IMG/VR virus record: IMGVR_UViG_3300044732_002445
Coordinates: 1-22,621 of that record
DNA: 22,621 nucleotides
Direction: 5' to 3' (one strand)
Origin: a virus
Numbering within the stretch: the first letter of the stretch is position 1; each line of letters starts with the position of its first letter. The notes under the pieces are model-generated. The model was not told where the DNA came from. It did not search any database and saw nothing but the letters and a program-made list of their open reading frames with translations. Positions 4,877 to 21,952 of the stretch are shown here, piece by piece. Both the position numbers and the translations under genes were made by a program.

Positions 4877-4930
4877 GACGGACATTGAAAGCATGGCAGG
4901 GCAGGGCATCGCATCGCATCGCATCGCATC

Positions 4931-4990
4931 GAAACGCGGTCAGGCTCTTGATTCGTCAGGGGTCTGATCGAGTTCTGATGGGACTCGAAA
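4931..4990 (+). ncRNA. Structured RNA core, copy 1
   Basis: As plus-strand RNA, core bases 7-21 pair without interruption with 26-40 (15 bp including four G-U pairs, loop UUCG). A second hairpin follows at once (41-46 with 50-55, loop GAU). On the minus strand the G-U pairs would become A-C mismatches, so the plus strand is the likely RNA. Transcription as a discrete RNA is unproven. Confidence 0.55.
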
Positions 4991-5040
4991 GCAAGGCACC
5001 GCATGGCAGCGCAGCGCAAGGCAACGCAGCGCAGCGCATC

Positions 5041-5100
5041 GAAACGCGGTCAGGCTCTTGATTCGTCAGGGGTCTGATCGAGTTCTGATGGGACTCGAAA
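5041..5100 (+). ncRNA. Structured RNA core, copy 2
   Basis: Identical in sequence to copy 1, 110 bp downstream, with the same predicted 15-bp hairpin and adjacent small hairpin. Confidence 0.55.
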
Positions 5101-5150
5101 GCAGGGCAAGGCGCGGCATCGCAAAGCAGCGCAAGGCAGTGCAAGGCATC

Positions 5151-5210
5151 GAAACGCGGTCAGCGGCTTGGAGATCCAGGCTGTTGATCGAGTTCTGATG
5201 GGACTCGAAA
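5151..5210 (+). ncRNA. Structured RNA core, copy 3 with compensatory changes
   Basis: The interior of the stem differs from copies 1 and 2, yet all 15 pairs remain. Core pair 13-34 goes from G-C to G-U, 14-33 from G-U to C-G, 15-32 from C-G to G-U, 16-31 from U-G to G-C, and 21-26 from A-U to G-C. The loop changes from UUCG to AGAU. The second hairpin is unchanged. Confidence 0.6.
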
Positions 5211-5255
5211 GCATGGCAACGCATCGCACCGCAGGGCAGTGCAACGCAGGGCATC

Positions 5256-5352
5256 GAAAAGCAACGCGGGCTGCACACTCTCAGAGCGGGCATCCCGAGT
5301 CGCTTTGACTCATAACCATATGGCAGGAAACCCTGCCGAAAGGAAATCAATC
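5256..5352 (+). promoter_or_regulatory. Structured leader of the 5353 gene
   Basis: Between array 1 and the gene lie three small hairpins: CGGG-CAT-CCCG (5287-5297), GAGTC-GCTTT-GACTC (5297-5311) and GGCAGG-AAAC-CCTGCC (5322-5337). The last is directly followed by the AAAGGAAA ribosome binding site. No promoter was recognised. Confidence 0.5.
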
Positions 5353-5949
5353 ATGGCAATGCAGACCGCAACTCTCACCGCATCCGGCATCGGCGGACTT
5401 CTTTTGAACAATCCTCAATGCGTCGATCGCTTCAACAGCTTCGCTCGCCGCATGAAGGCGATCAACGACAAGAAGACCCGTCGCACCGACGACGATTACC
5501 TGGAACTGCGTGATCTGGAGGTCGCATCGAAGTTGTACTTTGACGATGCGACCGGAGGTGTGTACGTCCCTGGCACATGGGTGATCGAGTCGATTGCCGG
5601 CTCTGCGTTCGGGGTCGCCAAGCTGTCGCGGGACAAGACCCGTGGGTCGCTTTTCGTGCAGACGATGAAGATTCCGCTCAAGTATGCCGGCATGGAGCTT
5701 GTGAAGGCCCCGGCGGACATCATCAAGAACCCGAAGTTCGTCCACACGATGGCGCTGCCGCAGGGCCAGGTGCGCGTGGTCAAATGCTTCCCGATTTTCC
5801 ACAACTGGTCGTTCGAAGTGAACGTCGAGTTCGACGACTCAATCATGGATCTCGGGATGCTGGTGCGCATCGGTGAGTACGCCGGCAAGTACGTCGGCTA
5901 CGGCGACCTGCGCCCGACGTTCGGCCGCGCCAAGGTCGAGGTGAAGTGA
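5353..5949 (+). CDS. Conserved phage protein of unknown function
   Basis: A 198-residue protein. The overall pattern resembles a widespread phage family of unknown function with a similar layout: early LNNPQ.VDRFN, then DDDYLELRDLE, the beta-strand YVPGTWVIESI, and a C-terminal GEYAGKYVGYGDLRPTFGRAKVEV matching the family's GLGDWRPRFGRF-type ending. No catalytic motif is visible. The start is the ATG at 5353, which has a clear AAGGAAA just upstream; the longer frame back to 5239 runs into repeat DNA. Its stop overlaps the next start (TGATG). It is flanked on both sides by composite repeat arrays, so this two-gene block may be a cassette bounded by repeats. Confidence 0.75.
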   Translation: MAMQTATLTASGIGGLLLNNPQCVDRFNSFARRMKAINDKKTRRTDDDYLELRDLEVASKLYFDDATGGVYVPGTWVIESIAGSAFGVAKLSRDKTRGSLFVQTMKIPLKYAGMELVKAPADIIKNPKFVHTMALPQGQVRVVKCFPIFHNWSFEVNVEFDDSIMDLGMLVRIGEYAGKYVGYGDLRPTFGRAKVEVK

Positions 5950-6395
5950 TGAGCGAGCGCAAAGAGCGGTTCAAGGATTTCTACGCCGAGCTTGATGCCC
6001 GTGGTCTGCTTGAGTACGGGTCGGTGATCGAGTCGAGTCTTGTGCAGGCGCTGCTGGACATCGTGGTGCCGAAGGTCGGCACCAAGGCCCAGTTCGACCG
6101 CGCATCACTGATGGAGTTGGGCGCCGTCGACTACGTTCGTGGGCTGCTGATCAAGCAGGGCCGATACCTGGCCGGTACGCCCGGCGGTTACCGCATCCTG
6201 CTGCCCAGCGAGAACGCCGACCAGGTGGCCGTCTACATCAACGCTGCGCAGCGTAAGCTGGCGAGGGCGTCGATGCTGAACCGCACCACGCCCGCCGAGC
6301 ACCGCGAGCGTGATGATCAGGTCGAGGCGCGGATCGAGTTGGCGCGCAGCGGTGCCGAGTCGCGGTTCCAGCCTGGAGGTAACCGAAGGCAGTGA
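5949..6395 (+). CDS. Conserved phage protein of unknown function
   Basis: A 148-residue, mostly helical protein whose start overlaps the preceding stop by one base, so the two are likely co-translated. The segment VDYVRGLLIKQGRYLAGTPG followed by GYRILLPSENADQV and AQRKLARA resembles phage proteins usually found beside the preceding family. The YLAGTPGGYRI part could be the wing of a winged helix, but this is a guess. A polar, Arg/Glu-rich tail follows. The stop lies 13 bases before composite array 2. Confidence 0.7.
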   Translation: MSERKERFKDFYAELDARGLLEYGSVIESSLVQALLDIVVPKVGTKAQFDRASLMELGAVDYVRGLLIKQGRYLAGTPGGYRILLPSENADQVAVYINAAQRKLARASMLNRTTPAEHRERDDQVEARIELARSGAESRFQPGGNRRQ

Positions 6396-6428
6396 GCCGC
6401 ATTGCTGGGCAATGCAAGGCATCGCATT

Positions 6429-6488
6429 GAAACGCGGTCAGGCTCTTGATTCGTCAGGGGTCTGATCGAGTTCTGATGGGACTCGAAA
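6429..6488 (+). ncRNA. Structured RNA core, copy 4
   Basis: Identical to copies 1 and 2 although 1.3 kb away, with the same predicted pair of hairpins. Confidence 0.55.
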
Positions 6489-6543
6489 GCAGGGCATTGC
6501 AATGCATCGCAAGGCACCGCAACGCATCGCAGGGCAAGGCATC

Positions 6544-6592
6544 GAAACGCGGTCAGGCTCTTGATTCGTCAGGGGTCTGATCGAGTTCCGAT
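6544..6592 (+). ncRNA. Structured RNA core, copy 5, truncated
   Basis: The first 45 bases match the core exactly, so the 15-bp hairpin (6550-6583) is intact. The 3' arm of the small second hairpin is missing. Confidence 0.5.
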
Positions 6593-6622
6593 ACACCGAC
6601 AACCGAGAACCAAAGGCACCAG

Positions 6623-7342
6623 GTGATTCACTATCACGGTCTACCAATCACCCCGAGTACCGCCGCCGTGGCGGCGATAAATACGGGGCATGCGTTCGTG
6701 TCGTTCAAGCACAGGGATCAGCTGACCACGGCCGCAGAATGCTGCCAGTCGTTCGCCATCGACAACGGTGCGTTCTCCGCGTGGCGCTCCGGCGACCCGA
6801 TCACAGACTGGTCGGAATTTTACGAATGGGCCGAGAAGTGCCGGCGGATCCCGTCGTGCGACTTCGCCGTGATCCCGGACATCATCGACGGCAGTGAGCA
6901 GGACAACGACGCGCTGCTTCTGGACTGCCCATTGCCGCGCTGGTTCAGCGCGCCCGTGTGGCACATGCACGAGAGCCTGACGCGGCTGGAGTGGCTGATC
7001 GATGAGTACCCGAGGATCTGCCTGGGCAGTTCCGGGGAGTACGCCAAGGTCGGCGACGAGAAGTGGTGGGTGCGAATCGCCGAGGCGATGTCGGTCATCT
7101 GCGATGAACAAGGCGCGCCTAAGTGCAAGATCCACGGCCTGCGCATGCTCAACCCGAAGGTGTTCACGAAGATACCGTTCGCCAGTGCCGACAGCACGAA
7201 CATCGGTCGCAACGTGGGCATCGACAAGAAGTGGGTGAACGGGAACTACCTGCCACCGACGAAAGAAGCCCGGGCGCAGGTGATGCGCAGCCGGATCGAA
7301 GCCTACAACGCACCTCTCACTTTCAAACTGGACAGACCATGA
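6623..7342 (+). CDS. DpdA-like tRNA-guanine transglycosylase-fold protein (deazaguanine base exchange)
   Basis: A 239-residue protein with the landmarks of the TGT/DpdA superfamily. It has SFAIDNGAFSAW (D47), CDFAVIPDIID (D86), ICLGSSGEY (132-140), KIHGLRML (169-176) and FASADSTNIGRN (D190). In TGT enzymes Asp residues at corresponding positions bind and attack the base. Family members replace guanine with a 7-deazaguanine; phage and bacterial DpdA proteins do this in DNA. At about 240 residues it fits the short phage DpdA types rather than the larger bacterial tRNA enzyme. GTG at 6623 starts the gene, behind AAAGG. Its stop overlaps the YhhQ-like transporter gene (ATGA), which supports a deazaguanine role. 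Whether the substrate is phage DNA or tRNA is inferred. Confidence 0.75.
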   Translation: MIHYHGLPITPSTAAVAAINTGHAFVSFKHRDQLTTAAECCQSFAIDNGAFSAWRSGDPITDWSEFYEWAEKCRRIPSCDFAVIPDIIDGSEQDNDALLLDCPLPRWFSAPVWHMHESLTRLEWLIDEYPRICLGSSGEYAKVGDEKWWVRIAEAMSVICDEQGAPKCKIHGLRMLNPKVFTKIPFASADSTNIGRNVGIDKKWVNGNYLPPTKEARAQVMRSRIEAYNAPLTFKLDRP

Positions 7343-7821
7343 ACCTTGGCATTGCAATCTGTGTGTACTCCGTCGCCATGACGCTCGCCAATCTGAGCGT
7401 GTCGATGTTCGGCCCCGCCGTGTCGCCGATCAACTCTTTCCTCTTCATCGGTCTGGATCTGGCGCTGCGTGACTGGCTGCATGTCAGACTCAAGGCATGG
7501 CAGATGGGACTGCTGATCGCGTCCTCCGGGGTGCTGACCTACGTCTTGAACCCAGCGGCAGGCAAGATCGCTGTGGCTTCCGCCTGCGCCTTCACGGCTG
7601 CAGCCGTCGTCGATTGGTCGGTGTTTTCCAGACTGACTGGAACCTGGAAATTCCGCGCCAACGGATCGAACGTGGCCGGTGCGGCTGTCGACTCCTTCGT
7701 CTTCCCCTACATCGCGTTCGGCGCGCTCATGCCGCACATCGTTGCCATGCAGTTCGCAGCCAAGGTCGCAGGCGGCCTGGTGTGGACTTCGATCCTGTCC
7801 AGATACGCTGGAGAGAAGTGA
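7339..7821 (+). CDS. VUT/YhhQ-family queuosine-precursor transporter
   Basis: A 160-residue inner-membrane protein with about four or five hydrophobic segments (2-22, 30-42, 55-72, 76-92, 112-150). It carries the family motifs SPINSFLFIGLDLALRD (29-45) and RANGSNVAGAAVDSFVFP (106-123). YhhQ in E. coli imports the queuosine precursors preQ0 and preQ1; the phage version is shorter than the E. coli one. It is coupled to the dpdA-like gene before it and to the PP-loop gene after it (ATGA at both ends). The simplest reading is that it supplies precursor for base exchange, since no preQ0 synthesis genes (folE, queD, queE) are visible in the window. Confidence 0.8.
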   Translation: MNLGIAICVYSVAMTLANLSVSMFGPAVSPINSFLFIGLDLALRDWLHVRLKAWQMGLLIASSGVLTYVLNPAAGKIAVASACAFTAAAVVDWSVFSRLTGTWKFRANGSNVAGAAVDSFVFPYIAFGALMPHIVAMQFAAKVAGGLVWTSILSRYAGEK

Positions 7822-8558
7822 TGACCGCGAGCAAAAGAGTGGTGTCCTGGTTCTCGTGCGGGGCCGCCAGTGCGGTGGCAACGCTGCTGGCAGCCGAAAA
7901 GTACGGCCAGATTGAAGCGGTCTACTGCCGCGTCGTTGAAGAGCACGAAGACAATCTGCGCTTCCTTGATGACTTCGTGCGAGTCACGGGAATCCCGGTT
8001 AAGACCATCGTCGATGAACCGCACCAAGGTTCGATCTTCAGGGTCTTTCTCAGGAGAGGTTTCATCAAGAATCAGTACGGCGCGCCTTGCACGATGATTC
8101 TGAAAAAGGACATGCGCAAGTCGTATCAACGCCCCGGAGACATCCAGGTGTTCGGCTACACCGCGGAAGAGCAAGACCGCGCGGATCGATTCATGGATGG
8201 CAACAACGATGTGCGGGAAGACTTCATCCTGCTCGACAAAGGCATCACCAAGAAGGAGTGCTACGCGCACCTGACCCGCCTCGGAATTGAACTGCCCGCC
8301 ATGTACAGACTCGGCTACAGCAACAACAACTGCGTCGGGTGCGTGAAGGGTGGGATGGGGTACTGGAACAAGATCCGCCGGGATTTTCCAGACCGTTTCA
8401 ACAAGATGGCGGAGCTTGAGCGCACCATCGGACACGCCGTGAACAAAGACAAGAACGGTCCCGTGTATCTTGATCAACTCTCCCCGAAGCGTGGGTACAA
8501 AAACAAAGACATGCCCGCCGACTGCGGGTTCACCTGCGAAGTGAAAGAGACACCATGA
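7821..8558 (+). CDS. PP-loop / PAPS-reductase-like ATPase
   Basis: A 245-residue protein of the adenine nucleotide alpha-hydrolase-like superfamily. The PP-loop reads SCGAASA (12-18), so the usual SGG is altered. Cysteines form a C171-x2-C174 pair (NNNCVGC) and a C235-x3-C239 pair (CGFTC), a likely metal or iron-sulphur site. Relatives in phages are annotated as phosphoadenosine phosphosulfate reductase family proteins and their reaction is unknown. The superfamily also includes QueC and DndC, so an adenylating or sulphur-inserting step is possible. Its start overlaps the transporter's stop, tying it to the deazaguanine cassette. Confidence 0.75.
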   Translation: MTASKRVVSWFSCGAASAVATLLAAEKYGQIEAVYCRVVEEHEDNLRFLDDFVRVTGIPVKTIVDEPHQGSIFRVFLRRGFIKNQYGAPCTMILKKDMRKSYQRPGDIQVFGYTAEEQDRADRFMDGNNDVREDFILLDKGITKKECYAHLTRLGIELPAMYRLGYSNNNCVGCVKGGMGYWNKIRRDFPDRFNKMAELERTIGHAVNKDKNGPVYLDQLSPKRGYKNKDMPADCGFTCEVKETP

Positions 8559-8568
8559 GCCACAAGCA

Positions 8569-8694
8569 ATGACCGATGACGACATTGACGAGATGATGCG
8601 TGAGCGGGTCGAGGAGCGGTACCGCTACGCGCTGATGGAGCACCCTGACTGCGCCGACCCGGGCCATCCAGGGTGTGAGGTGTGTGATGACTGA
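8569..8694 (+). CDS. 41-residue Cys-containing microprotein
   Basis: A small acidic protein (begins MTDDDIDEMMRERVEERY) with a C-terminal cluster HPDCADPGHPGCEVCDD whose cysteines and histidines could bind one zinc. It lies between the two PP-loop genes, 10 bases after the first and 15 before the second, in the same direction. A five-codon frame (8555-8572) from the ATG overlapping the preceding stop ends on this start, which could pass ribosomes on. Function is unknown. Similar Asp/Glu-rich, Cys-ended small proteins occur in phages, but I cannot name a family. Confidence 0.6.
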   Translation: MTDDDIDEMMRERVEERYRYALMEHPDCADPGHPGCEVCDD

Positions 8695-8709
8695 TGACAA
8701 GGATCTGTG

Positions 8710-9606
8710 ATGACCAAACCAAAATTGAACGTTAGTTTTTCTGGCGGCAGAACTAGCGCATACATGACCAAGCTCATCTTGGACAACTGGTCAGACAGGT
8801 ACGAAATGCTCGTTGTGTTTGCCAATACGGGTCTTGAGCACCCGAAGACACTTGAATTTGTCCACAACTGCGACCAGCAGTTTGGGTTCAACACCGTGTG
8901 GGTGGAAGGCGTTGTTCACCGTGGTGAACGCAAAGCGAGCACACACAAGGTAGTCACCTTCGAAACAGCGTCTCGCAAAGGTGAGCCGTTTGAGGCGTGC
9001 ATAGAGAAGTACGGCATCCCCAACTCGGCGTTTCCGCAATGCACAAGGGAGCTGAAGTTGTACCCAATCCGGTCGTACCTGCGGTCGTTGGGGATCAACT
9101 ACAGACACATACCTACCGCGATCGGCATACGCAATGACGAGAAACGCAGGGTGTCCAAATCCGCGGATGTCGACAGCATCATCTACCCTTTGGTAACCGA
9201 TTGGCCTACCGACAAGCAGGACGTTCTGGATTGGTGGGAAGATCAGCCGTTCAACCTAGAGATTGATGAATTCGAAGGCAACTGCCTAGGGTGTTACAAA
9301 AAGTCGCTCAAGAAGCATTTCATGCAGATTGAAAGGGACCCGTCCGTGTACGATTTTCACCGACGCATGGAAGACCAGTGGAGATCTTTCGGCCCGCAAA
9401 AAGGGGACAGGGTTTTCTTCAGAGGAAACACCGACACCCGCAAGCTCTTCAAGCTGTACGAAGAGTACGGACACGATCCTCGCAGGGCAAACGAAATGGC
9501 CTACGAGAACGGCGGATGCTCTGAATCATGCGAGATCTATGAAACCGAGGAAGCATCCGGGGTGCGGCGGGCAGCGGTCCAGAAGTACCGCGCCCGCGAG
9601 GTGTGA
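8710..9606 (+). CDS. PP-loop / PAPS-reductase-like ATPase, second copy type
   Basis: A 298-residue protein with a canonical PP-loop SFSGGRTSAYM (9-19), the FANTGLEHPKTL strand-loop (38-49), PQCTRELK (109-116), C192-x2-C195 (NCLGC) and C270-x3-C274 (CSESC). This family is common in phages and its reaction is unresolved. The CxxC plus CxxxC layout is shared with the first PP-loop protein, although the sequences differ. AAGGA precedes the ATG at 8710. The gene is noticeably more AT-rich than its neighbours in its first third and uses codons such as TTT and AGA, suggesting separate acquisition. It ends only five bases before the converging gene at 9612. Confidence 0.8.
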   Translation: MTKPKLNVSFSGGRTSAYMTKLILDNWSDRYEMLVVFANTGLEHPKTLEFVHNCDQQFGFNTVWVEGVVHRGERKASTHKVVTFETASRKGEPFEACIEKYGIPNSAFPQCTRELKLYPIRSYLRSLGINYRHIPTAIGIRNDEKRRVSKSADVDSIIYPLVTDWPTDKQDVLDWWEDQPFNLEIDEFEGNCLGCYKKSLKKHFMQIERDPSVYDFHRRMEDQWRSFGPQKGDRVFFRGNTDTRKLFKLYEEYGHDPRRANEMAYENGGCSESCEIYETEEASGVRRAAVQKYRAREV

Positions 9607-9611
9607 GGCGG

Positions 9612-9929
9612 TCAGGCCTTGGTCGCCTTGCGCGACAGGGTGCGGTTGAACGCCTCAGATCCGACCTCCTCGATCAGGTCGTCGATCCGGGCCATCGCCA
9701 GGCGGCGGGCCCGCGTCAGGCCCAACCCGCGAGACGAAGCGTAGGTGCTATCGACCCGCGTGACCTTCCCGCCTGAAGGCGGGTGGCCGACGATCCACTG
9801 CCCGGAGTCGTCCTTGTGCAGGGCGAGCTTGTGGATGTACGTCCCGCACAGGACAAGCAGCGGTTCGTAGGGCACAGGCTCGCCAATCGGGTTGCCGTCG
9901 CGGTCGCGTCGAATGTAGATCGGTTTCAT
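9612..9929 (-). CDS. Hypothetical phage protein
   Basis: A 105-residue protein that I do not recognise. Its N-terminus, MKPIYIRRDRDGNPIGEPV, reads like a short beta-hairpin. The centre is a Gly/Pro-containing segment (HPPSGGKVTRVDST), and the C-terminal part is helical and charged (ARRLAMARIDDLIEEV). A good AAGGAG precedes the ATG. It is the second gene of a two-gene minus-strand island inside an otherwise plus-strand region and converges with the second PP-loop gene. Confidence 0.65.
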   Translation of the reverse strand: MKPIYIRRDRDGNPIGEPVPYEPLLVLCGTYIHKLALHKDDSGQWIVGHPPSGGKVTRVDSTYASSRGLGLTRARRLAMARIDDLIEEVGSEAFNRTLSRKATKA

Positions 9930-9946
9930 TTCGGGTTCTCCTTGCG

Positions 9947-9966
9947 CGCCCGGCTTGCGCCGGGCG
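9947..9966 (-). terminator. GC-rich hairpin between the two minus-strand genes
   Basis: CGCCCGGC and GCCGGGCG form an 8-bp stem with a 4-base loop. It lies just upstream of the ribosome binding site of the 9929 gene. There is no U-run on the minus strand, so it may attenuate or stabilise the message rather than end transcription. Confidence 0.35.
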
Positions 9967-9972
9967 GGTTGT

Positions 9973-10188
9973 TCAGCAGTATTGGTTACGGATCAGGAAG
10001 GCGATCAACTCTGCCCGGTCACCTTCACGGTACTTGCCGCCGACCGGCCAGACATAGCACCGACCTGATGCCAGTTCACCGATCATCCGGTCGGCTGCGA
10101 TTTCGCGGCGCTCGATGCGGGCCAGAAACCGATCTTCAGCGGCCATGCGGCGGGCCTGTCTTGCGTCGAGGTGCTGAGTGGTGTTCAT
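9973..10188 (-). CDS. Hypothetical phage protein
   Basis: A 71-residue protein beginning MNTTQHLDARQARRMAAEDR, mostly helical and charged. It ends in a hydrophobic, Tyr- and Cys-containing segment (RAELIAFLIRNQYC). AGGAG seven bases before the ATG at 10186-10188 decides the start; the longer frame to 10278 would cross the control region. It is the first gene of the minus-strand island and diverges from the plus-strand replication operon. The function is unknown; its position next to palindromic sites would suit a small regulator, but no HTH is visible. Confidence 0.65.
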   Translation of the reverse strand: MNTTQHLDARQARRMAAEDRFLARIERREIAADRMIGELASGRCYVWPVGGKYREGDRAELIAFLIRNQYC

Positions 10189-10248
10189 GGTCTTGCTCCT
10201 GGTTGGCGCGCCGCGTCGTGCAGCGCATGGACAGATACTCTCACATCT

Positions 10249-10331
10249 CTTGCATATGCGCAAGCACTTTCGTTCCATAAATCGTGAAAATTTTCACAGG
10301 GGTTGCACGGCCTCAAATTTTCATGCAATAT
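10249..10331. promoter_or_regulatory. Divergent control region of the replication operon
   Basis: Two palindromes lie here: CTTGC-ATATGC-GCAAG (10249-10264) and the perfect 14-bp GTGAAAATTTTCAC (10284-10297). A plus-strand promoter candidate follows, TTGCAC (10303-10308) and CAATAT (10326-10331) with a 17-bp spacer. On the minus strand TTGCGC, within the first palindrome, with GAGTAT 17 bp on could serve the 10188 gene. This is the likely switch for the long plus-strand operon. Confidence 0.5.
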
Positions 10332-10362
10332 CCACCACTCCAACGCAACCCGAACCCAAACC

Positions 10363-10515
10363 ATGACACCGACCTCGATCATCCGCGCACCGCAGCCCCT
10401 GCCGCGCCCCTACAAGAAGTCCACACCGATCCGCGACATGCTGATCGCAGCCCTGATCGGCGCCGCCATCGGCGCGCTCTATGCGTCTGTGGCGATGTCC
10501 ACAGGCGCACTCTGA
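10363..10515 (+). CDS. Small single-pass membrane protein
   Basis: A 50-residue protein with a Pro/basic N-terminus (APQPLPRPYKKSTPIRD) and one hydrophobic segment (MLIAALIGAAIGALYASVAM, about 26-45) rich in small residues. It is the first gene after the candidate promoter at 10303-10331. No Shine-Dalgarno sequence precedes the ATG, so initiation may be weak. The next gene follows 19 bases later behind a good AGGAG. The function is not recognised. Confidence 0.5.
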   Translation: MTPTSIIRAPQPLPRPYKKSTPIRDMLIAALIGAAIGALYASVAMSTGAL

Positions 10516-10534
10516 CCAACCCCCAGGAGAAACC

Positions 10535-10966
10535 ATGCTTGAACAGAAGCTCGAAGAGTTGACCTGCGCCATCAACGCGCTGACCGGAATGCTTGCGACC
10601 ATCGGCCTGTCCGCCAAAGAGGCGCCCGCCCCGCGCGCCAAGCGCACCAAGCAGGCCGAAGAGCACACCGCCCAGGCTGCGCCCCCGGTCGTTGAAGAGC
10701 CCGTCGCCGCGCCGCAGCCCGAACCGCGGCCCGAACCGCAGCCCGAGCCGGCGGTCGAGCCGACGGTGGAGGCGTTCGCAGATGTCGAGGACCCCGAACC
10801 GACGCAGGCCGACATCTCCGCACTGGTGATGGCGATCGTGCGGGACAAGGGTCGCGACGTCGCGCTGGGCGCGCTGGCCGGTCTGGGTGTCAAGAACGCC
10901 CGCGAGATCGATCCCGCCAACTACCGCGAGGCCGTTCACGCCCTGCGCGCCGCCGCCGAGTCCTGA
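10535..10966 (+). CDS. Phage protein with coiled-coil N-terminus and Pro/Glu-rich linker
   Basis: A 143-residue protein. A short amphipathic helix (LEQKLEELTCAINALTGML) is followed by a disordered basic then Pro/Glu/Ala-rich linker (about 30-88, with PEPRPEPQPEP repeats). A folded C-terminal domain (about 95-143) contains ALVMAIVRDKGRDVALGAL and LGVKNAREIDPANYREAV. Similar proteins occur just upstream of DUF2800 nuclease genes in phages, where the conserved C-terminal helices precede a DPANY-like motif. No enzyme motif is present; an adaptor or replication-accessory role is a guess. AGGAG precedes the ATG. Confidence 0.65.
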   Translation: MLEQKLEELTCAINALTGMLATIGLSAKEAPAPRAKRTKQAEEHTAQAAPPVVEEPVAAPQPEPRPEPQPEPAVEPTVEAFADVEDPEPTQADISALVMAIVRDKGRDVALGALAGLGVKNAREIDPANYREAVHALRAAAES

Positions 10967-10967
10967 G

Positions 10968-12125
10968 ATGGAGCAGCATTCCAAACTCAGCCCGTCGATG
11001 CTCTACCGGGCCTTCGCATGTCCGGGCAGCGTTCAGGAAACGGAAGGCTGCCCCGACACGTCATCTGCGGCTGCCGAGGAGGGCACCGCGATGCACGAGG
11101 TAGCCAAGCACATCCTGACCGGGCGCCCCGTCACCGAGTTCCGCAACCAGGAGACGCTCGGGTTCGTGATGAACGATGAGCGCATTTCTGTCGTCGAGAA
11201 GTACGTCGGCTACATCCGCGAACTGCAGTTGAAGTTCGGCGGTCAGTTGCTGGTCGAGCAGACCTTGCCGATTCCGGAGATCAACGGCTGGGGCACGACC
11301 GACGCGGCGCTGGTCGGCTGCGACGACGGCACCCTGCGTGTGTTCGATCTGAAGTGCGGTCGCGGCGTTCGCGTCTACGCCGACGGGGAGCAGTTGCGGG
11401 CCTATGCGCTGCCGCTGATGCGCGAGTGGGATCTGATCCATGACATCTCCAGGATCGAACTGCACATCGTTCAGCCGCGTCTGGGCAACTACGACGTGCA
11501 TGTCGTCACACCGGAGGAGTTGGACGCCTTTGCGGGCTCGCTGGTCGATCTGGTGGAGCGCGTAGCGCAGCCTGATGCACCCCGCATTGCCGGAGCATCG
11601 CAGTGCCGGTTCTGTCCTGCCAAGGGCAAGTGCCCGGCCCTGCAAGACGAAGTGCGCAGCATCATCGTCGGTGATGAGTGCGGCTTCGAAGACCTGGACG
11701 CTGCAACCGTAGGATCGATCGTGCTGCATGACAATGAGTGGTTCGCGACCGTCATCAACAAACTGGATCTGATCCGGAGCTGGTGCGACGCGGTCGAAAC
11801 GATGGCCGAGACCCGCATGAAGGAGGGGCACGAGATCCCCGGCTACAAGCTGGTCGCTGGCCGTGCCGGCAACAGGAAGTGGAAGAACGAAGCAGAAGTC
11901 GAGGCACTGCTCAAGAAGTGGCGCCTGTCCAAGGAGGAGATCTACGCCTTCAAGGTCATCAGCCCGACGACTGCTCAGAAGAATTTCGCAGCAACGCCCA
12001 AGCGCTGGCTGGCCTTGGAACAGCACATCGAGCGATCGGAGGGCAAGCCCGAGATCGCCCCTGTAACCGATAAGCGCCCGTCGATTCTGCCGGGTGCCGA
12101 TTCGGATTTCGACGACCTTGTTTAA
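10968..12125 (+). CDS. DUF2800 protein, Cas4/RecB-like iron-sulphur nuclease
   Basis: A 385-residue phage nuclease. The PD-(D/E)XK motifs of the RecB/Cas4 type are present: H43 (AMHEVA), GTTD ending at D112, FDLKCG with D127 and K129, and QLRAY (142-146). Four cysteines, C18 (FACPGS) and C213, C216 and C222 (CRFCPAKGKC), match the split N/C-terminal arrangement that staples a 4Fe-4S cluster in Cas4 and AddB. It probably processes DNA ends during phage replication or recombination. It starts one base after the previous stop codon and is followed by the DUF2815 and polymerase genes, a conserved phage trio. Confidence 0.85.
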   Translation: MEQHSKLSPSMLYRAFACPGSVQETEGCPDTSSAAAEEGTAMHEVAKHILTGRPVTEFRNQETLGFVMNDERISVVEKYVGYIRELQLKFGGQLLVEQTLPIPEINGWGTTDAALVGCDDGTLRVFDLKCGRGVRVYADGEQLRAYALPLMREWDLIHDISRIELHIVQPRLGNYDVHVVTPEELDAFAGSLVDLVERVAQPDAPRIAGASQCRFCPAKGKCPALQDEVRSIIVGDECGFEDLDAATVGSIVLHDNEWFATVINKLDLIRSWCDAVETMAETRMKEGHEIPGYKLVAGRAGNRKWKNEAEVEALLKKWRLSKEEIYAFKVISPTTAQKNFAATPKRWLALEQHIERSEGKPEIAPVTDKRPSILPGADSDFDDLV

Positions 12126-12149
12126 CCCTCAAACCCGAAAGGAAAGACC

Positions 12150-12695
12150 ATGCAAGTGATGCTCAAGAATGTCCGTCTCGCGTTCCCCAACCTGTTCGAA
12201 GCCCGCGGCGTCGGCGATTCGGATCCCCGGTACTCGGCGACTCTGATCTTCGCCGTCGACAGTCCCGCGCATAAGCAGATGGTCGAGGCCATCGAGAAGG
12301 TCGCCAAGGACAAGTGGGGTGCGAAAGCGGAAGTGTCCATGAAGGCAGTCCGCGCCAAGAACAAGGTCTGTCTGCACGACGGCGCTGAGAAGGCCCGCTA
12401 CGACGGATTCGACGGCATGATGTACGTCAGCGCGTCGAACAAGGACCGCCCGACCGTAATCGACCGCCAGCGCGCCCCGCTGCAGCCCGGCGACGGTCTG
12501 CCCTACGCTGGGTGCGTCGTCAACGCTCAGATCGATGTCTGGGCGCAGGAGAACCAGTACGGCCTGGGCATCAACGCACTGCTGATGGGCATCCAGTTCG
12601 TCAAGGACGGCGACCGGTTCGGTGGCGGGGGTGTGGCATCGGCTGACGCCTTCGACATCCTGGAAGACGACGAAGACGCGAGCGATCTGGTCTGA
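12150..12695 (+). CDS. DUF2815 single-stranded DNA-binding protein
   Basis: A 181-residue protein beginning MQVMLKNVRLAFPNLFEARG, the hallmark of DUF2815 (LxNVRLSFPxLFE). It also contains RYSATLIFAVDS, RPTVIDRQRAPLQPGDGLPY, the YAGCVVNAQIDVWAQ strand and a very acidic tail (DILEDDEDASDLV). Family members are phage ssDNA-binding proteins with an OB-like fold. The acidic tail is typical of SSBs that recruit partners. GAAAGGAAAG lies ahead of the ATG. It sits between DUF2800 and the DNA polymerase, as in many phages. Confidence 0.9.
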   Translation: MQVMLKNVRLAFPNLFEARGVGDSDPRYSATLIFAVDSPAHKQMVEAIEKVAKDKWGAKAEVSMKAVRAKNKVCLHDGAEKARYDGFDGMMYVSASNKDRPTVIDRQRAPLQPGDGLPYAGCVVNAQIDVWAQENQYGLGINALLMGIQFVKDGDRFGGGGVASADAFDILEDDEDASDLV

Positions 12696-12697
12696 GC

Positions 12698-14680
12698 GTG
12701 AGCGTGCCGACGATGAAGAACCTGTGGCTCGACACCGAGACGTTCGGACACCGAGATATTCGCGTCGGCACGCACGCCTACACCGAGGCGTGCGAGGTCA
12801 TGCTGGTGGCGTGGGCAGTCGATGAAGAGCCGGTGTCGGTGTGGGACAGAACAACGTCCGACCCGATGCCGGATCGGCTGGCCGCGGCCCTCGCAGACCC
12901 CGAGGTGCGCGTCTGGGCGCACAACTACCAGTTCGACCGTTTCGCGATGAAGCACGGTGCTGGCGTCGATATCCCCATCGAACGCTGGCGCTGCACGATG
13001 GCCTTGGCGTTGTCCCATAGCCTGCCAGGCGCGCTCGGCAAGCTGGGCACGCTGTTCGGCCTGTCTGGCGAAGACGCGAAGATGGACGACGGTCGCAGGC
13101 TGGTGCTGAAGTTCTGCAAATTCCAGGGCAAGAAACAGAAGATCCGCCGCCGCACCCGCGACACCGACCCGGAGGATTGGCAGCGGTTCATGGAGTACGC
13201 CGCGCGTGACGTCGAGGCGATGCGCAAGTTGACCAAGCGGATGCCCCGGTGCAACTGGACGGCGCAAGAGGTCGAACTCTTCCACCTCGACGGTCGCATC
13301 AATGAGCGTGGTGTAGCGGTCGACGCCGAGTTCGCCATCGCAGCCGCCAAGGCATGCGACCTTGAGCAGCGCCGCCTGGCGAAGGACGCTGCGGACATGT
13401 CCTATGGGCATCTTGAAGCGACGACCCAGCGCGATGCGCTGCTGCGATATCTGCGCGACAGGTTCGGCATCGTGCTGGCTGATCTGCGCGGCTCCACCGT
13501 CGAGAACCTGCTCGACAGCGCCGACCTCGACTGGGGCGCGGCCGAGTTGCTTCGCAACCGGCTGCAGGCGTCCACGGTGTCGGTGCGCAAGTACACATCC
13601 ATCGCCAAGGCGATGTCGGCCGACCACAGGCTGCGCGGCGGCACGCAGTTCCGGGGCGCGGCGCGCACCGGGCGGCTGGCCGGTCGGGTGTTCCAGCCCC
13701 ACAACCTGCCCCGCCCTCCCAAGCACATCAAGCAGCCGGCCATCCTGGAGGCCATCGACGCCTTCAAGGCGGGCTGCATTGATCTGCTGGTGCCCAACGT
13801 CATGGAGATGGCGTCGGCAGCCTTGCGCGGTCTCCTGGTGGCGCCTGAAGGCCGCAAGCTGGTCGTGTGCGATCTGTCCAACATCGAAGGGCGCGTCGTG
13901 GCCTGGCTGGCCGGTGAAGAGTGGAAACTCGACGCCTTCCGGGAACGCGACGCCAAGACCGGCCCGGATCTGTATAAGCTGGCCTACGCCAAGGCGTTCA
14001 ACCGCGACGTCGCCACGATCACCGACGACGAAAGGCAGATCGGCAAGGTCATGGAGCTTGCCCTCGGCTTTCAGGGTGCGTCTGGCGCATTCACGACGAT
14101 GGCCGCGGGCTACGGCGTCCGATTGCCTGAGCCGCAGGTGCTGGAGATCGTTCGCGGCTGGCGCGACGCCCACCCGAACATCCGCGACCTCTGGTACGAC
14201 ATGGACGCGGCGCTCAAGGCCGCGACCGATAACCCGAAAGCGGTGATCCCCGTCGGTCCTCGGCTGGTCGTCGACTCGATGAAGCTGGGCAGCAACTACT
14301 GGCTGCGGATCCGTCTGCCCAGCGGTCGATACCTGTGCTACCCGAACCCGCAGGTCGATCCGATCAGCGGCAAGTGGTCGTACATGGGCGTGAACCAGTT
14401 CACACGGAAGTGGGAGCGCATCAAGTCCTACGGCGGCAAGGCCATCGAGAATGCAACGCAAGCCTGCGCCGCCGATATCCTGATGCACGGGATGCTGCTG
14501 GCCGAGAAGAACGGCTACCCGCCCGTGATGTCGGTGCATGACGAAATCATCTCCGAGACCCCGAACACCGAAGAATTCAACGTACATGAGTTGGCTGCGC
14601 TTATGACACGCAACCCAGCGTGGGCAGATGGATTGCCGCTTGCAGCAGAAGGGTACGAAGCGACCCGCTACCGAAAATAA
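12698..14680 (+). CDS. Phage DNA polymerase, family A, with 3'-5' exonuclease
   Basis: A 660-residue replicative polymerase. The exonuclease domain (about 1-190) has the DEDDy residues: LDTET (D12, E14), NYQFD (D80) and YAARDVEAM (Y167, D171). The polymerase domain carries motif A CDLSNIEGRV (D392), motif B RQIGKVMELALGFQG (R446, K450) and motif C VHDE (D615). There is no 5'-3' exonuclease domain, as is usual in phages. Numbering uses the GTG at 12698; the ATG five codons later (12713) would also fit, and neither has a clear ribosome site. It follows the DUF2815 gene by two bases. Confidence 0.93.
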   Translation: MSVPTMKNLWLDTETFGHRDIRVGTHAYTEACEVMLVAWAVDEEPVSVWDRTTSDPMPDRLAAALADPEVRVWAHNYQFDRFAMKHGAGVDIPIERWRCTMALALSHSLPGALGKLGTLFGLSGEDAKMDDGRRLVLKFCKFQGKKQKIRRRTRDTDPEDWQRFMEYAARDVEAMRKLTKRMPRCNWTAQEVELFHLDGRINERGVAVDAEFAIAAAKACDLEQRRLAKDAADMSYGHLEATTQRDALLRYLRDRFGIVLADLRGSTVENLLDSADLDWGAAELLRNRLQASTVSVRKYTSIAKAMSADHRLRGGTQFRGAARTGRLAGRVFQPHNLPRPPKHIKQPAILEAIDAFKAGCIDLLVPNVMEMASAALRGLLVAPEGRKLVVCDLSNIEGRVVAWLAGEEWKLDAFRERDAKTGPDLYKLAYAKAFNRDVATITDDERQIGKVMELALGFQGASGAFTTMAAGYGVRLPEPQVLEIVRGWRDAHPNIRDLWYDMDAALKAATDNPKAVIPVGPRLVVDSMKLGSNYWLRIRLPSGRYLCYPNPQVDPISGKWSYMGVNQFTRKWERIKSYGGKAIENATQACAADILMHGMLLAEKNGYPPVMSVHDEIISETPNTEEFNVHELAALMTRNPAWADGLPLAAEGYEATRYRK

Positions 14681-14703
14681 CCCACCAGCCAGAAGGAACT
14701 GCT

Positions 14704-14907
14704 ATGACCCCCCGCATAGAAGTGAACTACATCGAGCCCCCGACCCTTGAAGAGATTCGTGCAAGGAACGAAGAGAAACTGCGCGCCGCGAAAGAGCACC
14801 TCGGGCGGCGGTGGATCCTGCATCCGGGTAACCGCATTGAGAAGAAACGCACGACGGAAGACAGCTATGCCACGCGCTTTGCTAGCTACGCCCGGCAAGC
14901 GTCGTAA
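14704..14907 (+). CDS. Small hypothetical protein
   Basis: A 67-residue protein that I do not recognise. The helix PTLEEIRARNEEKLRAAKEHL is followed by GRRWILHPGN and a basic tail (IEKKRTTEDSYATRFASYAR). AAGGA eight bases ahead of the ATG supports this start. It sits between the polymerase gene and another small gene in the same operon. Confidence 0.6.
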   Translation: MTPRIEVNYIEPPTLEEIRARNEEKLRAAKEHLGRRWILHPGNRIEKKRTTEDSYATRFASYARQAS

Positions 14908-14914
14908 GGCGCCC

Positions 14915-15082
14915 ATGTACGCCGCCTTCCTGTTCGGCAAGATCCGCTGGGATCTCGGTCTGTATCTGACCAAGAAGGACGCCCTTGAGCAGGCGCGCAT
15001 CGCCGGTCTGATGATCGACCGGCGTGACCTGCGCGGTGGCACCGAAGTGTCGACCCGCCGTGTGTGGATCTCGACCGAATGA
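14915..15082 (+). CDS. Small hypothetical protein
   Basis: A 55-residue protein, MYAAFLFGKIRWDLGLYLTK and onward, ending STRRVWISTE. The ATG at 14915 follows AAGG and lies seven bases past the previous stop; an earlier ATG at 14867 would overlap the preceding gene. A KKDALEQARIAGLMI helix is the only clear element. The stop overlaps the VRR-NUC start through ATGA, so it is probably co-translated with it. Confidence 0.55.
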   Translation: MYAAFLFGKIRWDLGLYLTKKDALEQARIAGLMIDRRDLRGGTEVSTRRVWISTE

Positions 15083-15348
15083 GGGAGAGCGTCGTTGAAG
15101 CGTACCTGCGCAAGCGGGTGCGGGAGGCGGGTGGCGAGGCGTGGAAGTTCACCAGCCCCGGCACCCGCGGCGTGCCAGACCGGATCGTGCTGCTACCAGG
15201 CGGTCGGGTGTGGTTCGTGGAGCTGAAGCGGCCTGGCGCGGTCCCCGCGCCGCACCAGGCTCGACTGCACGAGAAGATGCGCCGCCTCGGGATGTGCGTG
15301 CTGGTGTTGGACTCAATCGAAAGCATTGACGGACTGTTTGCGAGATGA
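15079..15348 (+). CDS. VRR-NUC domain nuclease
   Basis: An 89-residue stand-alone VRR-NUC protein of the PD-(D/E)XK superfamily. Visible motifs are E7 in the first helix, SPGTRGVPDRIVLLP with D34, WFVELKRPG with E48 and K50, and the HQ (59-60) that follows in phage members. Such proteins are structure-specific nucleases, often encoded next to the SNF2-like helicase in phages, as here. ATGA overlaps join it to the genes on both sides. Confidence 0.9.
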   Translation: MRESVVEAYLRKRVREAGGEAWKFTSPGTRGVPDRIVLLPGGRVWFVELKRPGAVPAPHQARLHEKMRRLGMCVLVLDSIESIDGLFAR

Positions 15349-16712
15349 ACCTGCGACCGTATCAAGAGAGAATGATCGAGTTCATCGCGGACAACCCCCG
15401 CGGTGCGCTGTTCGCCGGCATGGGACTGGGCAAGACCGTGTCGGTGCTGACCGCGCTGGACCGGCTGTCGCTGGTCGACGATGTCTTCCCGGTGCTGGTG
15501 CTGGCCCCTTATCGGGTCGCGCAAAGCACCTGGCCCGATGAGGTCGCCAAGTGGCCGCACCTGAGGCACCTGAAGATCGCGGCGATGGTCGGCACTCCGA
15601 AAGAGCGCCTGGCGGCCCTCCACAGTGGCTCGCAGATCCTCACCCTGAACTACGAGAACATCGGCTGGCTGGTGGAGCAACTCGGTCCGCGCTGGCCCTT
15701 CAAGACCGTGGTCGCCGATGAATCGACCAAGCTGAAATCCTTTCGCCTCAGGCAGGGCGGCAAACGCGCCGGGATGCTCGGGGCCAAAGCGTACCGGTCC
15801 GCCAGGTGGATCAACCTGACCGGCACCCCCGCGCCCAATGGTCTGATCGATCTCTGGGGTCAGACATGGTTCCTTGACCGGGAGGTGCTGGGCGCGACCT
15901 ACACCGCGTTCACCGACCGTTGGTTCAAGCAGGGCTATGACGGATACAGCCTGCTGCCGCTGCCTCACGCGCAGGCTGAGATCGAGGCGCGTATCGCCCC
16001 GATATGCACCTCGCTTCAGGCGGCGGACTATCTGGCTCTGCCACCGCTGATCGAGAACGTGATCCGCGTGCAGATGCCTGCGGCGGCGCGCAACGCCTAC
16101 GACGAGATGGAGCGTGAGATGTTCACGACGCTGGCCTCGGGCGAGGAGATCGAAGCGTCGATGGCGGCTGCGAAGACGATGAAGTGCCTCCAAATTGCGA
16201 ACGGCGCAGCGTACATTGGCGACTCCAATGAGGCCTGGGAGGTCGTCCACGATGCGAAGCTCGACGCGCTTGAGGAAATCGTTGAAGAAGCAGCAGGAGC
16301 GCCGGTCCTGGTGGCATATCACTTCCGAAGCGACCTTGAGCGCCTCAAGGGGCGATTCGGAAAGCGCCTGCGACACCTCGACAAGTCTGCCGGCACCATC
16401 CGAGACTGGAACGATGGAAAGATCCCCATCCTCGCCGCCCACCCCGCCAGTGCCGGACACGGTCTGAACCTTCAGCACGGCGGCAACATCCTCGCGATGT
16501 TCGGCCACTGGTGGAACCTCGAGGAATATCAGCAGATCGTTGAGCGGATCGGACCGACCCGCCAGGCGCAGGCTGGTCTGAACCGACCCGTGTTCGTGCA
16601 TCACATCGTGAGCGCCGGCACGGTCGATGAACTGGTGCTGCAACGCCGCGAAACGAAAGCAACCGTTCAAGAGCTGCTCATGCAGCGCATGAAAGAGAAA
16701 AAGCATGTCTGA
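15345..16712 (+). CDS. SNF2-like DEAD/DEAH-box helicase
   Basis: A 455-residue superfamily 2 ATPase. The start LRPYQERMIEFI is followed by Walker A GMGLGKT (25-31), motif Ia VLVLAPYRVAQSTW, Walker B ADEST (D125, E126; Ser replaces the usual Ala/Cys-His) and motif III LTGTPAPNG. The C-terminal half has ASAGHGLNLQ, the FGHWWNLEEYQQ segment and motif VI ERIGPTRQ. Phage homologues are thought to remodel replication or recombination intermediates. It is coupled to the VRR-NUC gene by ATGA, a pairing that recurs in phages and suggests a helicase-nuclease unit. Confidence 0.9.
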   Translation: MNLRPYQERMIEFIADNPRGALFAGMGLGKTVSVLTALDRLSLVDDVFPVLVLAPYRVAQSTWPDEVAKWPHLRHLKIAAMVGTPKERLAALHSGSQILTLNYENIGWLVEQLGPRWPFKTVVADESTKLKSFRLRQGGKRAGMLGAKAYRSARWINLTGTPAPNGLIDLWGQTWFLDREVLGATYTAFTDRWFKQGYDGYSLLPLPHAQAEIEARIAPICTSLQAADYLALPPLIENVIRVQMPAAARNAYDEMEREMFTTLASGEEIEASMAAAKTMKCLQIANGAAYIGDSNEAWEVVHDAKLDALEEIVEEAAGAPVLVAYHFRSDLERLKGRFGKRLRHLDKSAGTIRDWNDGKIPILAAHPASAGHGLNLQHGGNILAMFGHWWNLEEYQQIVERIGPTRQAQAGLNRPVFVHHIVSAGTVDELVLQRRETKATVQELLMQRMKEKKHV

Positions 16713-16845
16713 CAACGACCAAGACGATTTCGATTCTCAACCCCAACCCGGTTGCCCGGACGCGGGCATGATCATGCTGGCCTGGATGGCTATCGTGCTG
16801 CTCGCGTTCACGGTCGGGTGCATCGTAGGAGCAGCAATCTCGTGA
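16705..16845 (+). CDS. Small single-pass membrane protein
   Basis: A 46-residue protein overlapping the end of the helicase gene by eight bases in another frame. The acidic/polar N-terminus (MSDNDQDDFDSQPQPG) is followed by one hydrophobic segment (MIMLAWMAIVLLAFTVGCIV, about 22-41), predicting an N-out or N-in single-pass protein. Its TGA overlaps the following GTG start. The function is unknown. Confidence 0.6.
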   Translation: MSDNDQDDFDSQPQPGCPDAGMIMLAWMAIVLLAFTVGCIVGAAIS

Positions 16846-17072
16846 ACACCGAAGATGAAGTCTCGCAGTACCTGTTGCGCACATACGGTCCGCGACTCAC
16901 GACCGCCGATCTGGCGGCCGTGCTGAAGCTGGCACAGACCACGATCTGGAACACGGCGGCCTCCGGCCACATCAAGGTGCCGACGTATGTGGACAACGGG
17001 AAACGGTACGCCGACTACAGGGATGTCGCCGCGTATCTCAACCAACAGCGGGGCAGCGCCAGCAAAGACTGA
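16842..17072 (+). CDS. Excisionase/MerR-like helix-turn-helix protein
   Basis: A 76-residue protein with an HTH of the MerR/excisionase type: LTTADLAAVLKLAQTTIWN (helices), then SGHIKVPTYVDNGKRYADY forming the wing, and RDVAAYLNQQR. Such proteins bind DNA as small regulators or recombination directionality factors. No integrase is seen, so regulation seems likelier. The start is GTG at 16842, overlapping the previous stop (GTGA); the longer frame from 16752 lies inside the membrane-protein gene. Confidence 0.7.
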   Translation: MNTEDEVSQYLLRTYGPRLTTADLAAVLKLAQTTIWNTAASGHIKVPTYVDNGKRYADYRDVAAYLNQQRGSASKD

Positions 17073-17095
17073 CGCACCCCGCACAGGAGAATCCG

Positions 17096-17320
17096 ATGAA
17101 CTACGAATACGAACAGGCTTTCTGGTGGGTCGGTGCCGCGCTGCTCGCGCTCACGACGACGCACGCAATCTTGCTGATCTGGGTCTGCACGTTGCGCAAT
17201 CGGCTGAAAGCTTTGCGCCAGGACTTCTACATCTTTCGAGACGCCGTGGGCCAGCAGTTCAAGGCCGATGCGATTCGCCAGGCGCGGGCCGCGAACGATG
17301 AGAGAGCGGGGCATGTATGA
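17096..17320 (+). CDS. Small membrane-anchored coiled-coil protein
   Basis: A 74-residue protein. The segment WWVGAALLALTTTHAILLIWVC (about 10-31) is a membrane anchor, followed by a charged helical tail (RNRLKALRQDFYIFRDAVGQ...). The shape resembles an i-spanin but it is short and lies in the early operon, so I make no lysis claim. AGGAG precedes the ATG and the stop overlaps the next start by ATGA. Confidence 0.65.
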   Translation: MNYEYEQAFWWVGAALLALTTTHAILLIWVCTLRNRLKALRQDFYIFRDAVGQQFKADAIRQARAANDERAGHV

Positions 17321-17610
17321 GCGAGGAGATCAGCAAGGCCGCCCGCAGCGCGGTTCTGGATCTGATCGAAGCCAAGCGCACCGGCATGTACCCGTGGCGG
17401 GTAGAGCGGGCCACCCAGACGCTGATGGAGGTGCTGGCGGGCGAGAAGTCGACGACCAGGGAGACCCGGCTGATCAACTACGCGCCGGCGGTCATCTCTT
17501 CGATCACGATGCGTGCTCTGAAGCACGGCAACACGCAGGCAAGCATGCTGACGATGCCGACCATCGTCAGGCTGTCGTTGGATTGGTTGGACAAACGGGA
17601 GGTGAAATGA
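17317..17610 (+). CDS. Hypothetical phage protein
   Basis: A 97-residue, predominantly helical protein (ISKAARSAVLDLIEAKRTGM, WRVERATQTLMEVL, MPTIVRLSLDWLDKREVK) with no recognised domain, membrane segment or catalytic motif. It is coupled at both ends through ATGA overlaps, to the membrane protein before it and the MazG-like gene after it. Confidence 0.65.
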   Translation: MSEEISKAARSAVLDLIEAKRTGMYPWRVERATQTLMEVLAGEKSTTRETRLINYAPAVISSITMRALKHGNTQASMLTMPTIVRLSLDWLDKREVK

Positions 17611-17978
17611 AGAGCGTTTTCGAGCAGCAGCGGGAGTTCATGCAGGCGTGCGGCCAGACTACCTGGACGCCCAACGACAAGCAGATCCTGATGTACGAAT
17701 CGTTGATCGAGGAAGAGCACGCCGAGTGGCTGGACGCGTATGGCGGCAAGGTCGATGACCTGGACGCAGTGATCGATCAGATCGTGGTGCTGATCGGCTA
17801 CGGCCTGTCGCATGGGTGGGACATGGAAGGCGCGTGGGCCGAGGTGATGCGCTCCAACATGGCGAAGATCGATCCGGACACCGGGATGGTGCGGCGACGC
17901 GCAGACGGCAAGATTTTGAAACCAGGCAATTGGGTCGCGCCCGACCTGAAACCTTTCATGGAGCCTTCAAAGCGATGA
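17607..17978 (+). CDS. MazG-like nucleoside triphosphate pyrophosphohydrolase
   Basis: A 123-residue all-alpha NTP pyrophosphatase-like protein. EEEHAE (35-40) supplies the EExxE motif and LDAVID (52-57) the second metal-binding motif. A C-terminal block, RSNMAKIDPDTGMVRRRADG then KILKPGNWVAPDL, is typical of this phage subfamily. It would hydrolyse (d)NTPs to monophosphates, tuning nucleotide pools or removing abnormal nucleotides, which fits its place before ThyX. GGAGG lies just ahead of the ATG. Confidence 0.85.
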   Translation: MKSVFEQQREFMQACGQTTWTPNDKQILMYESLIEEEHAEWLDAYGGKVDDLDAVIDQIVVLIGYGLSHGWDMEGAWAEVMRSNMAKIDPDTGMVRRRADGKILKPGNWVAPDLKPFMEPSKR

Positions 17979-18268
17979 GCGTGTTGCGCGATGCGGCTGA
18001 GAAAGCCGTTAACTTCCTGTCCAAAGAGGGGTTTCTGTTCAACGAAGAAACCCGCTACCTCCATGCCGCCCTCGAGTACGAACGAGTGCCTCTGAGTGTC
18101 GAAGCGATATGGCAACTGATCGAAGAGGATCCGCACTTCAACATGACGGCGGGCGCGCTCTCAATTTTGCTAAGTGAAATTCCTGACCGCGAGGTCGCGA
18201 CCGAGATGTTTAAGCTGCACATCATCGGCATCATCCGTCTGATCGAGCGCGCCCACGGGATTGAATGA
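17975..18268 (+). CDS. Hypothetical phage protein
   Basis: A 97-residue helical protein of unknown function. It begins MSVLRDAAEKAVNFLSKEGF, carries an acidic central helix (AIWQLIEEDPHF) and ends in an amphipathic helix (LHIIGIIRLIERAHGIE). It is coupled through ATGA overlaps to the MazG-like gene and to thyX, so a role in nucleotide metabolism is possible, but only position suggests it. Confidence 0.6.
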   Translation: MSVLRDAAEKAVNFLSKEGFLFNEETRYLHAALEYERVPLSVEAIWQLIEEDPHFNMTAGALSILLSEIPDREVATEMFKLHIIGIIRLIERAHGIE

Positions 18269-20144: not shown

Positions 20145-20176
20145 GGCGTTCACATATCGTCAGGAAGAAGGGAGGT

Positions 20177-20924: not shown

Positions 20925-20931
20925 TGGGCTC

Positions 20932-21294: not shown

Positions 21295-21301
21295 GAGTCC
21301 C

Positions 21302-21946: not shown

Positions 21947-21952
21947 TGCAGG

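Follow-up and report, generated by a model that had tools for sequence, protein, structure and literature searches.

Among the closest described systems is the preQ0 pathway of Queuovirinae and Seuratvirus phages of the CAjan type, in which queD and folE lie next to dpdA and the phage makes its own base; we take CAjan itself to carry a Seuratvirus-type DpdA together with this pathway. A CAjan dpdA mutant is reported to have lost dPreQ0 (PMC6884629). A second group, the singleton DpdA phages (group 3, Hutinet 2019), includes Salmonella phage 7-11 and Pantoea phage MED16, for neither of which FolE, QueD, QueE or QueC is on record. The role of the singleton DpdA has been open since 2019, the first two phages measured having yielded no modified base (Orion) or a trace of it (7-11, 50 units of the amidated nucleoside dADG per 10^6 nucleotides) (PMC6884629). 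MED16, in which dpdA was the sole gene detected, is reported to have 354 dADG per 10^6 nucleotides (PMC8306585). Since dADG occurs in both MED16 and 7-11, DNA modification is within the reach of the singleton family, the amounts measured being low. Here we analyse a virus fragment of 22,621 bases (IMG/VR record IMGVR_UViG_3300044732_002445; the whole stretch is called the window, and absences refer to this fragment rather than to the whole phage) that encodes a DpdA of this family and, in the same operon, a VUT/YhhQ-like transporter, an arrangement in which it differs from 7-11 and MED16.

We favour, with a probability of about 0.58, a scenario in which these two genes form a salvage module: VUT would import a 7-deazaguanine base and DpdA would place it in phage DNA, the two PP-loop genes that follow being passengers. 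Import is thus proposed for the window where Seuratvirus-type phages make the base. Precursor uptake by singleton-DpdA phages has already been suggested in print, with phage YhhQ homologues noted there without a correlation, and in the open-licence literature we found no paper describing a tight DpdA-VUT pairing. The two genes are:

6623 to 7342, plus strand: dpdA, a singleton-type DpdA/TGT-like transglycosylase by sequence, 239 aa, GTG start (phrog_887, 3.6e-68)
7339 to 7821, plus strand: vut, a short VUT/YhhQ-like transporter, 160 aa (PF02592, 1.8e-11; phrog_4899, 5.9e-37)

The initial annotation had read both identities from the sequence, and both hold. It had also joined dpdA, vut and the first PP-loop gene (PP1) by ATGA overlaps; this is correct for dpdA and vut, whereas vut and PP1 share a single base within TGATG, or GTGA should the GTG at 7818 be the PP1 start codon.

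The pairing of DpdA with VUT is strong. For the viral locus scans the best-matching relatives were kept (80 of at least 597 for DpdA, 80 of 180 for VUT, 80 of 457 for PP1, all 20 for the second PP-loop protein, PP2, and 80 of 284 for polA as a control), so that the scans are biased towards close kin, and many of the contigs are fragments. By profile search, 71 of the 80 best viral DpdA loci have a VUT no more than 600 bp away; tblastn gives 70. Conversely, each of the 62 VUT loci that were newly fetched contains DpdA by profile, and tblastn finds it in 79 of the 80 VUT loci, the single miss having VUT at the locus edge. The pairs detected by tblastn are uniformly arranged, with VUT downstream on the same strand in 131 of 131 and a median gap of 30 bp. 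At the polA control loci, tblastn detected DpdA or VUT in none of 80, and the profile search detected VUT in one. The order is reversed, VUT preceding DpdA, in the cultured phages PEAT2, Opt-719, LHE71, Phc and RCIP0319 (DpdA being recognised by annotation in PEAT2 and by phrog_887 in the other four), and phage AB3P2 has DpdA first, then VUT. On a DpdA tree of 85 rows VUT changes at least nine times, and the starred branches force at least five changes of the 'VUT only' label, although this is a quick tree in which near-identical rows, 122 of 207, had been collapsed and many forks are weakly supported.

Two other kinds of neighbour were recorded at these loci. C5-methyltransferase genes were considered as a pointer to action on DNA and set aside: at loci with full flanks, one lies no further than 2.5 kb from the viral DpdA in 5 of 27 cases, from VUT in 4 of 22 and from the genome DpdA in 4 of 55, but rates are similar beside PP1 (3 of 34) and PP2 (2 of 14), with 0 of 66 for polA, and the model was seeded by a single sequence, so that such neighbours do not discriminate. 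Separately, a protein of about 82 aa, phrog_37496, is a neighbour of DpdA at 30 of the 67 loci from genomes and at 25 of the 80 viral ones (for example L337:9756-10004, L081:10699-10989 and L084:5756-6001). It matches no QueD profile, is missing from the window, and is a possible DpdA partner.

On sequence grounds the gene at 6623 to 7342 belongs to the singleton DpdA family. The phrog_887 family that it matches is annotated 'queuine tRNA-ribosyltransferase', while no match came from Pfam or NCBIfam, nor from PDB sequences compared with the protein and with its profile. Among 50,697 phage records, 106 relatives were found at E<=1e-5 (105 of them less than 60% identical) and 122 at E<=1e-3. When a profile of 19 relatives was compared by hhalign with the DpdA of Seuratvirus GottfriedDienst, whose gene adjoins queD and folE, the match reached 97.3% with E 2.4e-11 over 151 columns, and the homology extends over the active-site region. 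The 19 diverse relatives all keep DNGAF (47-51), PD (85-86), H171-G172 and SADS (188-191), and the invariant D47 and D190 in the first and last of these motifs align with LDSGAFSA and SCDSS of the Seuratvirus protein; we take these aspartates to be catalytic, as in TGT. For a by-eye comparison of motifs, a host TGT (L401) shows TDSGGFQ and DMFDC. The window DpdA is 32% identical to that of phage 7-11 and 45% identical to those of SW9 and SEN1. The latter two are the closest viral homologues of the MED16 protein, which falls with singleton phage DpdAs in a cluster, DpdA/TGT_1, that also contains proteobacterial TGT homologues (PMC8306585).

The transporter assignment likewise follows from family resemblance. 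VUT exceeds the PF02592 cut-off (45.1 against 27.2 bits) and shares with the E. coli YhhQ/VUT preQ0 transporters (COG1738) both this domain and six hydrophobic stretches in its hydropathy profile. However, it is short, at 160 aa against frames of 215-289 aa for most strong host copies, and it falls below the cut-offs of the curated YhhQ models (TIGR00697, 4e-5 and 23.5 of 50.95 bits; PRK11212.1, 23 of 252).

Why would a phage carry an importer of this kind? One clue comes from the distribution of precursor genes. The QueC family has no match in the window's record, and PF01242, folE and queE are absent from general scans of the window proteins, no search dedicated to them having been made. Outside the window, PTPS/QueD is missing from all of 49 viral records, themselves fragments, namely 48 DpdA records and a 99.5%-identical sister contig (G077). 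Among the hosts, PTPS is missing in six (G024, G025, G026, G111, G112 and G115), which comprise 4 of the 7 with VUT-bearing DpdA loci (L388, L390, L392 and L393) against 2 of the 59 others (Fisher p 7e-4). This comparison covers 66 of 67 genomes (L338 was left out), the first 27 having been picked with VUT status known so as to include VUT-bearing isolates, and its host lineages are not independent; L331, L391, L393 and L397 are metagenome-assembled genomes by title, and the L397 contig ends at DpdA, so that a VUT beyond it would go unseen. Rhizobium and Devosia belong to one order. An independent tie of DpdA to the 7-deazaguanine pathway is provided by an uncultured betaproteobacterium (L332), whose DpdA is 67% identical to that of the window and overlaps at its start, by four bases, a PTPS/QueD-like gene of 109 aa (9675-10004). 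Three hosts (G001:C23, G003:C5 and G010:C8) carry a second QueC adjoining a weak TGT match and PTPS, clusters that are perhaps host dpd or CBASS-like systems.

Salvage was the simplest model for the initial annotation as well, and it gains from the linkage of the pair, its occurrence in reversed order, the host QueD pattern and the dADG of a related singleton-DpdA phage. In such a module VUT would bring a 7-deazaguanine base, most likely preQ0 and possibly preQ1, into the infected cell, and the singleton DpdA would swap guanine for the imported base in phage DNA by a TGT-type exchange via the conserved SADS aspartate. The amide step that yields dADG, as in the relative MED16, would fall to another enzyme. 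By analogy with MED16 and 7-11, DpdA probably inserts 7-deazaguanine into DNA; import by VUT and the nature of its cargo we infer from family and context. A dedicated transporter would offer a reason for the low amounts of modified base in singleton-DpdA phages, namely supply. If so, DNA modification in these phages would depend on environmental bases, and the amount seen in the laboratory would vary with host and medium. Since several cultured phages carry the DpdA-VUT pair, the question is directly testable. A wider proposal, somewhat less likely than not, is that phages unable to make 7-deazaguanine have put together, several times over and with either gene first, a portable pair of importer and inserter. 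VUT and DpdA would let them modify their DNA with a vitamin-like base taken up from their surroundings, which would be most useful in queuosine-salvaging hosts.

Several observations weigh against the salvage module. DpdA does not need VUT, since the transporter adjoins it in 7 of 67 bacterial genome loci and is missing beside the other 60. Nor is VUT confined to DpdA phages: in phage mEp021 (L329:4959-5471) it is flanked by a gene of hypothetical product on one side and a DNA methyltransferase gene on the other, with no DpdA in the record (among the 21 phage records with VUT, the annotated neighbourhood was read for seven and the others were judged from coordinates alone). Hosts G024, G025 and G026 already have their own, longer VUT frames, which makes the added value of a second VUT unclear. 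The absence of QueC is not clearly linked to VUT, as a strong full-length match is missing in 2 of 7 VUT hosts (G024 and G026) and 3 of 59 others (G083, G091 and G115), the 59 including the L332 genome, which was not searched for QueC. The 7-deazaguanine amounts reported so far for singleton-DpdA phages are low, 0.02-0.13% of Gs (PMC6884629, PMC8306585), and MED16 DNA is described as still cut by most restriction enzymes tested (PMC8306585). Finally, homology of the window DpdA to canonical TGTs was not shown by profile comparison with ten host TGTs (hhalign); since the Seuratvirus DpdA fails the same test, it is uninformative. The AF2 model of the protein is of modest confidence (pLDDT 66.5, pTM 0.65, both ends weak), and Foldseek returned generic barrels only, with no match at E<=1e-3. 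VIA-align places TGTs at the top (Z 10.5, 5.0 Å, 221 residues), with Cap10 at 10.1 and CutC at 10.0 among the matches. The TGT barrel that the initial annotation had expected is not contradicted, but neither is it proven.

It is possible that the target is RNA rather than DNA. Targeting of tRNA is the main rival to DNA targeting: with VUT importing a precursor of queuosine, the TGT-like enzyme would modify host or phage tRNA and tune translation during infection, low-level DNA modification in relatives being a side reaction. YhhQ-type transporters serve tRNA queuosine, and an RNA target would suit the very low DNA levels given above as well as the presence of proteobacterial TGT homologues in the DpdA/TGT_1 cluster. 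However, the window protein aligns to phage DpdA and has no detectable homology to canonical TGTs; it stops about 50 residues past the catalytic motif, leaving no room for the zinc domain of TGT, and TGT is already present in all 27 hosts searched. An RNA target strikes us as unlikely. A different way to separate the two genes is to suppose that DpdA uses a base made by the host and that VUT does another job, such as transporting some other purine or depleting the pool of the host. The substrate range of the VUT family may be broader, and most hosts of the genome DpdA loci, where VUT is generally missing, do encode QueC and PTPS, but neither the near-obligate pairing in viruses nor the overrepresentation of VUT-bearing loci in hosts that lack PTPS is easily reconciled with this idea, which we regard as improbable.

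The initial annotation had extended the dpdA-vut pair into a five-gene cassette with the features that follow downstream:

7821 to 8558, plus strand: PP-loop 1 (PP1), PAPS-reductase-like, 245 aa, with CxxC and CxxxC (phrog_424, 1.7e-46)
8569 to 8694, plus strand: 41-aa open reading frame, no Pfam match, no family found
8707 to 9606, plus strand: PP-loop 2 (PP2), NinC family by sequence, 299 aa (PF01507, 8.1e-10)
9561 to 9606, plus strand: recombination scar at the PP2 3' end, whose tail RAAVQKYRAREV is common to an unrelated 75-aa open reading frame of the sister contig

The four main open reading frames, all on the plus strand, and the 41-aa frame between PP1 and PP2 were confirmed, as was the order of microprotein and second PP-loop gene after PP1. 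Of the cassette as a unit, only the DpdA-VUT pair survives, because the PP-loop genes do not travel with it: DpdA lies near 2 of the 80 best PP1 relatives, whose usual neighbours are replication genes (identities read by eye), and near 0 of 20 PP2 relatives. Lambda NinC, PAPS-reductase-like phage proteins and PptA are the nearest described systems for the two PP-loop proteins, which show no such linkage to DpdA.

PP1 matches PDB entry 21fy_C, 'PptA', at 2.8e-77 and is roughly half identical to it judged by eye; we found no paper explaining the name. Its model (pLDDT 87.3) is nearest by Foldseek to TtuA, NcsA, QueC and LarE, with Cap9 also among the matches. Both PP-loop proteins match phrog_424, PP2 lying above the PF01507 cut-off and PP1 below it (17.8 of 22.5 bits). 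PAPS reductase (CysH) was considered as an identity for either and rejected, given this score of PP1 and the lack in both translations of ECGIH, the C-terminal active-site motif of that enzyme. PP2, to judge from its sequence, is a NinC-family protein: the family, partly annotated NinC, has 479 matching phage records, lambda imm434 included (tblastn 9e-24, 29.6%; the lambda gene is 'hypothetical' there and NinC by name in other matches), and PP2 and its NinC relatives have the PP-loop and the CxxC and CSESC cysteines in common. The sister contig (L247) is 99.5% identical to the window over 10179-22621 and 97% over 9561-10194 and then diverges, carrying at the position of the PP2 end the unrelated 75-aa frame (L247:120-347) with the C-terminus RDAVQKYRAREV. 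Because of this divergence, and because the PP2 tail RAAVQKYRAREV extends past the end of the NinC relatives, a recombination joint lies at the PP2 end, made in one or other lineage; the contig ends at the joint, so its reach does not include dpdA and vut. The GC content also separates the genes, at 61.5% for dpdA, 60.5% for vut and 65% for polA against 56% for PP1 and 53% for PP2. PP1 and PP2 are therefore probably unrelated passengers, PP2 having been acquired by recombination, and we rejected them as parts of the pathway.

These findings bear on two further scenarios in which the PP-loop enzymes would matter. The four genes could form a pathway in which the base is activated, amidated or sulphurated by these enzymes, as the initial annotation had suggested. 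Such a role would fit the gene order, the short overlap of vut with PP1 and the predicted fold of PP1, whose nearest likenesses are QueC and PP-loop enzymes of sulphur transfer. Among the 80 best DpdA loci, 18 do have a NinC-family gene, of a more distant kind, within 10 kb, which is no surprise for a gene so common in phages. Set against this, the closest PP-loop relatives reside in phages that lack DpdA, PP2 resembles a protein that lambda also carries, PP2 ends in the scar and both PP-loop genes have the lower GC, so that a four-gene pathway seems to us very unlikely; with the PP-loop enzymes unsupported as pathway parts, the idea of a new branch of this chemistry loses its main ground. Protein could also be the target. 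In type IV CBASS, the TGT-family Cap10 and the QueC-like Cap9 attach a deazaguanine to the N-terminus of a protein (PMC11996544). Cap10 and Cap9 are indeed among the structural matches of the DpdA and PP1 models, respectively, but TGTs score as high as Cap10 against the former, PF06508 (QueC) matches neither PP1 nor PP2 in the Pfam scan, the window proteins that were scanned include no CD-NTase, and PP1 does not accompany DpdA elsewhere. Protein deazaguanylation would thus be a most surprising outcome.

The salvage pair sits among replication genes, which encode a primase-like protein, a DUF2800 exonuclease, a single-stranded-DNA-binding protein, an SNF2-type helicase and ThyX; no RNA family and no tRNA was matched in the window. 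Directly upstream of dpdA lies a repeat:

6386 to 6662, plus strand: two repeat copies spaced by about 110-115 nt, with three more copies at 4888-5269

The five copies flank two genes, 5239-5949 (phrog_4652) and 5946-6395, and the series of copies stops just before dpdA. A 35-nt core has four exact occurrences, where none is expected by chance, and the repeat may serve as a promoter or as a site of recombination. At the far end of the window, two tandem genes on the minus strand (20932-21294 and 21302-21946) contain stretches that are 78% alike, and the larger of them weakly matches a tail-tube family.

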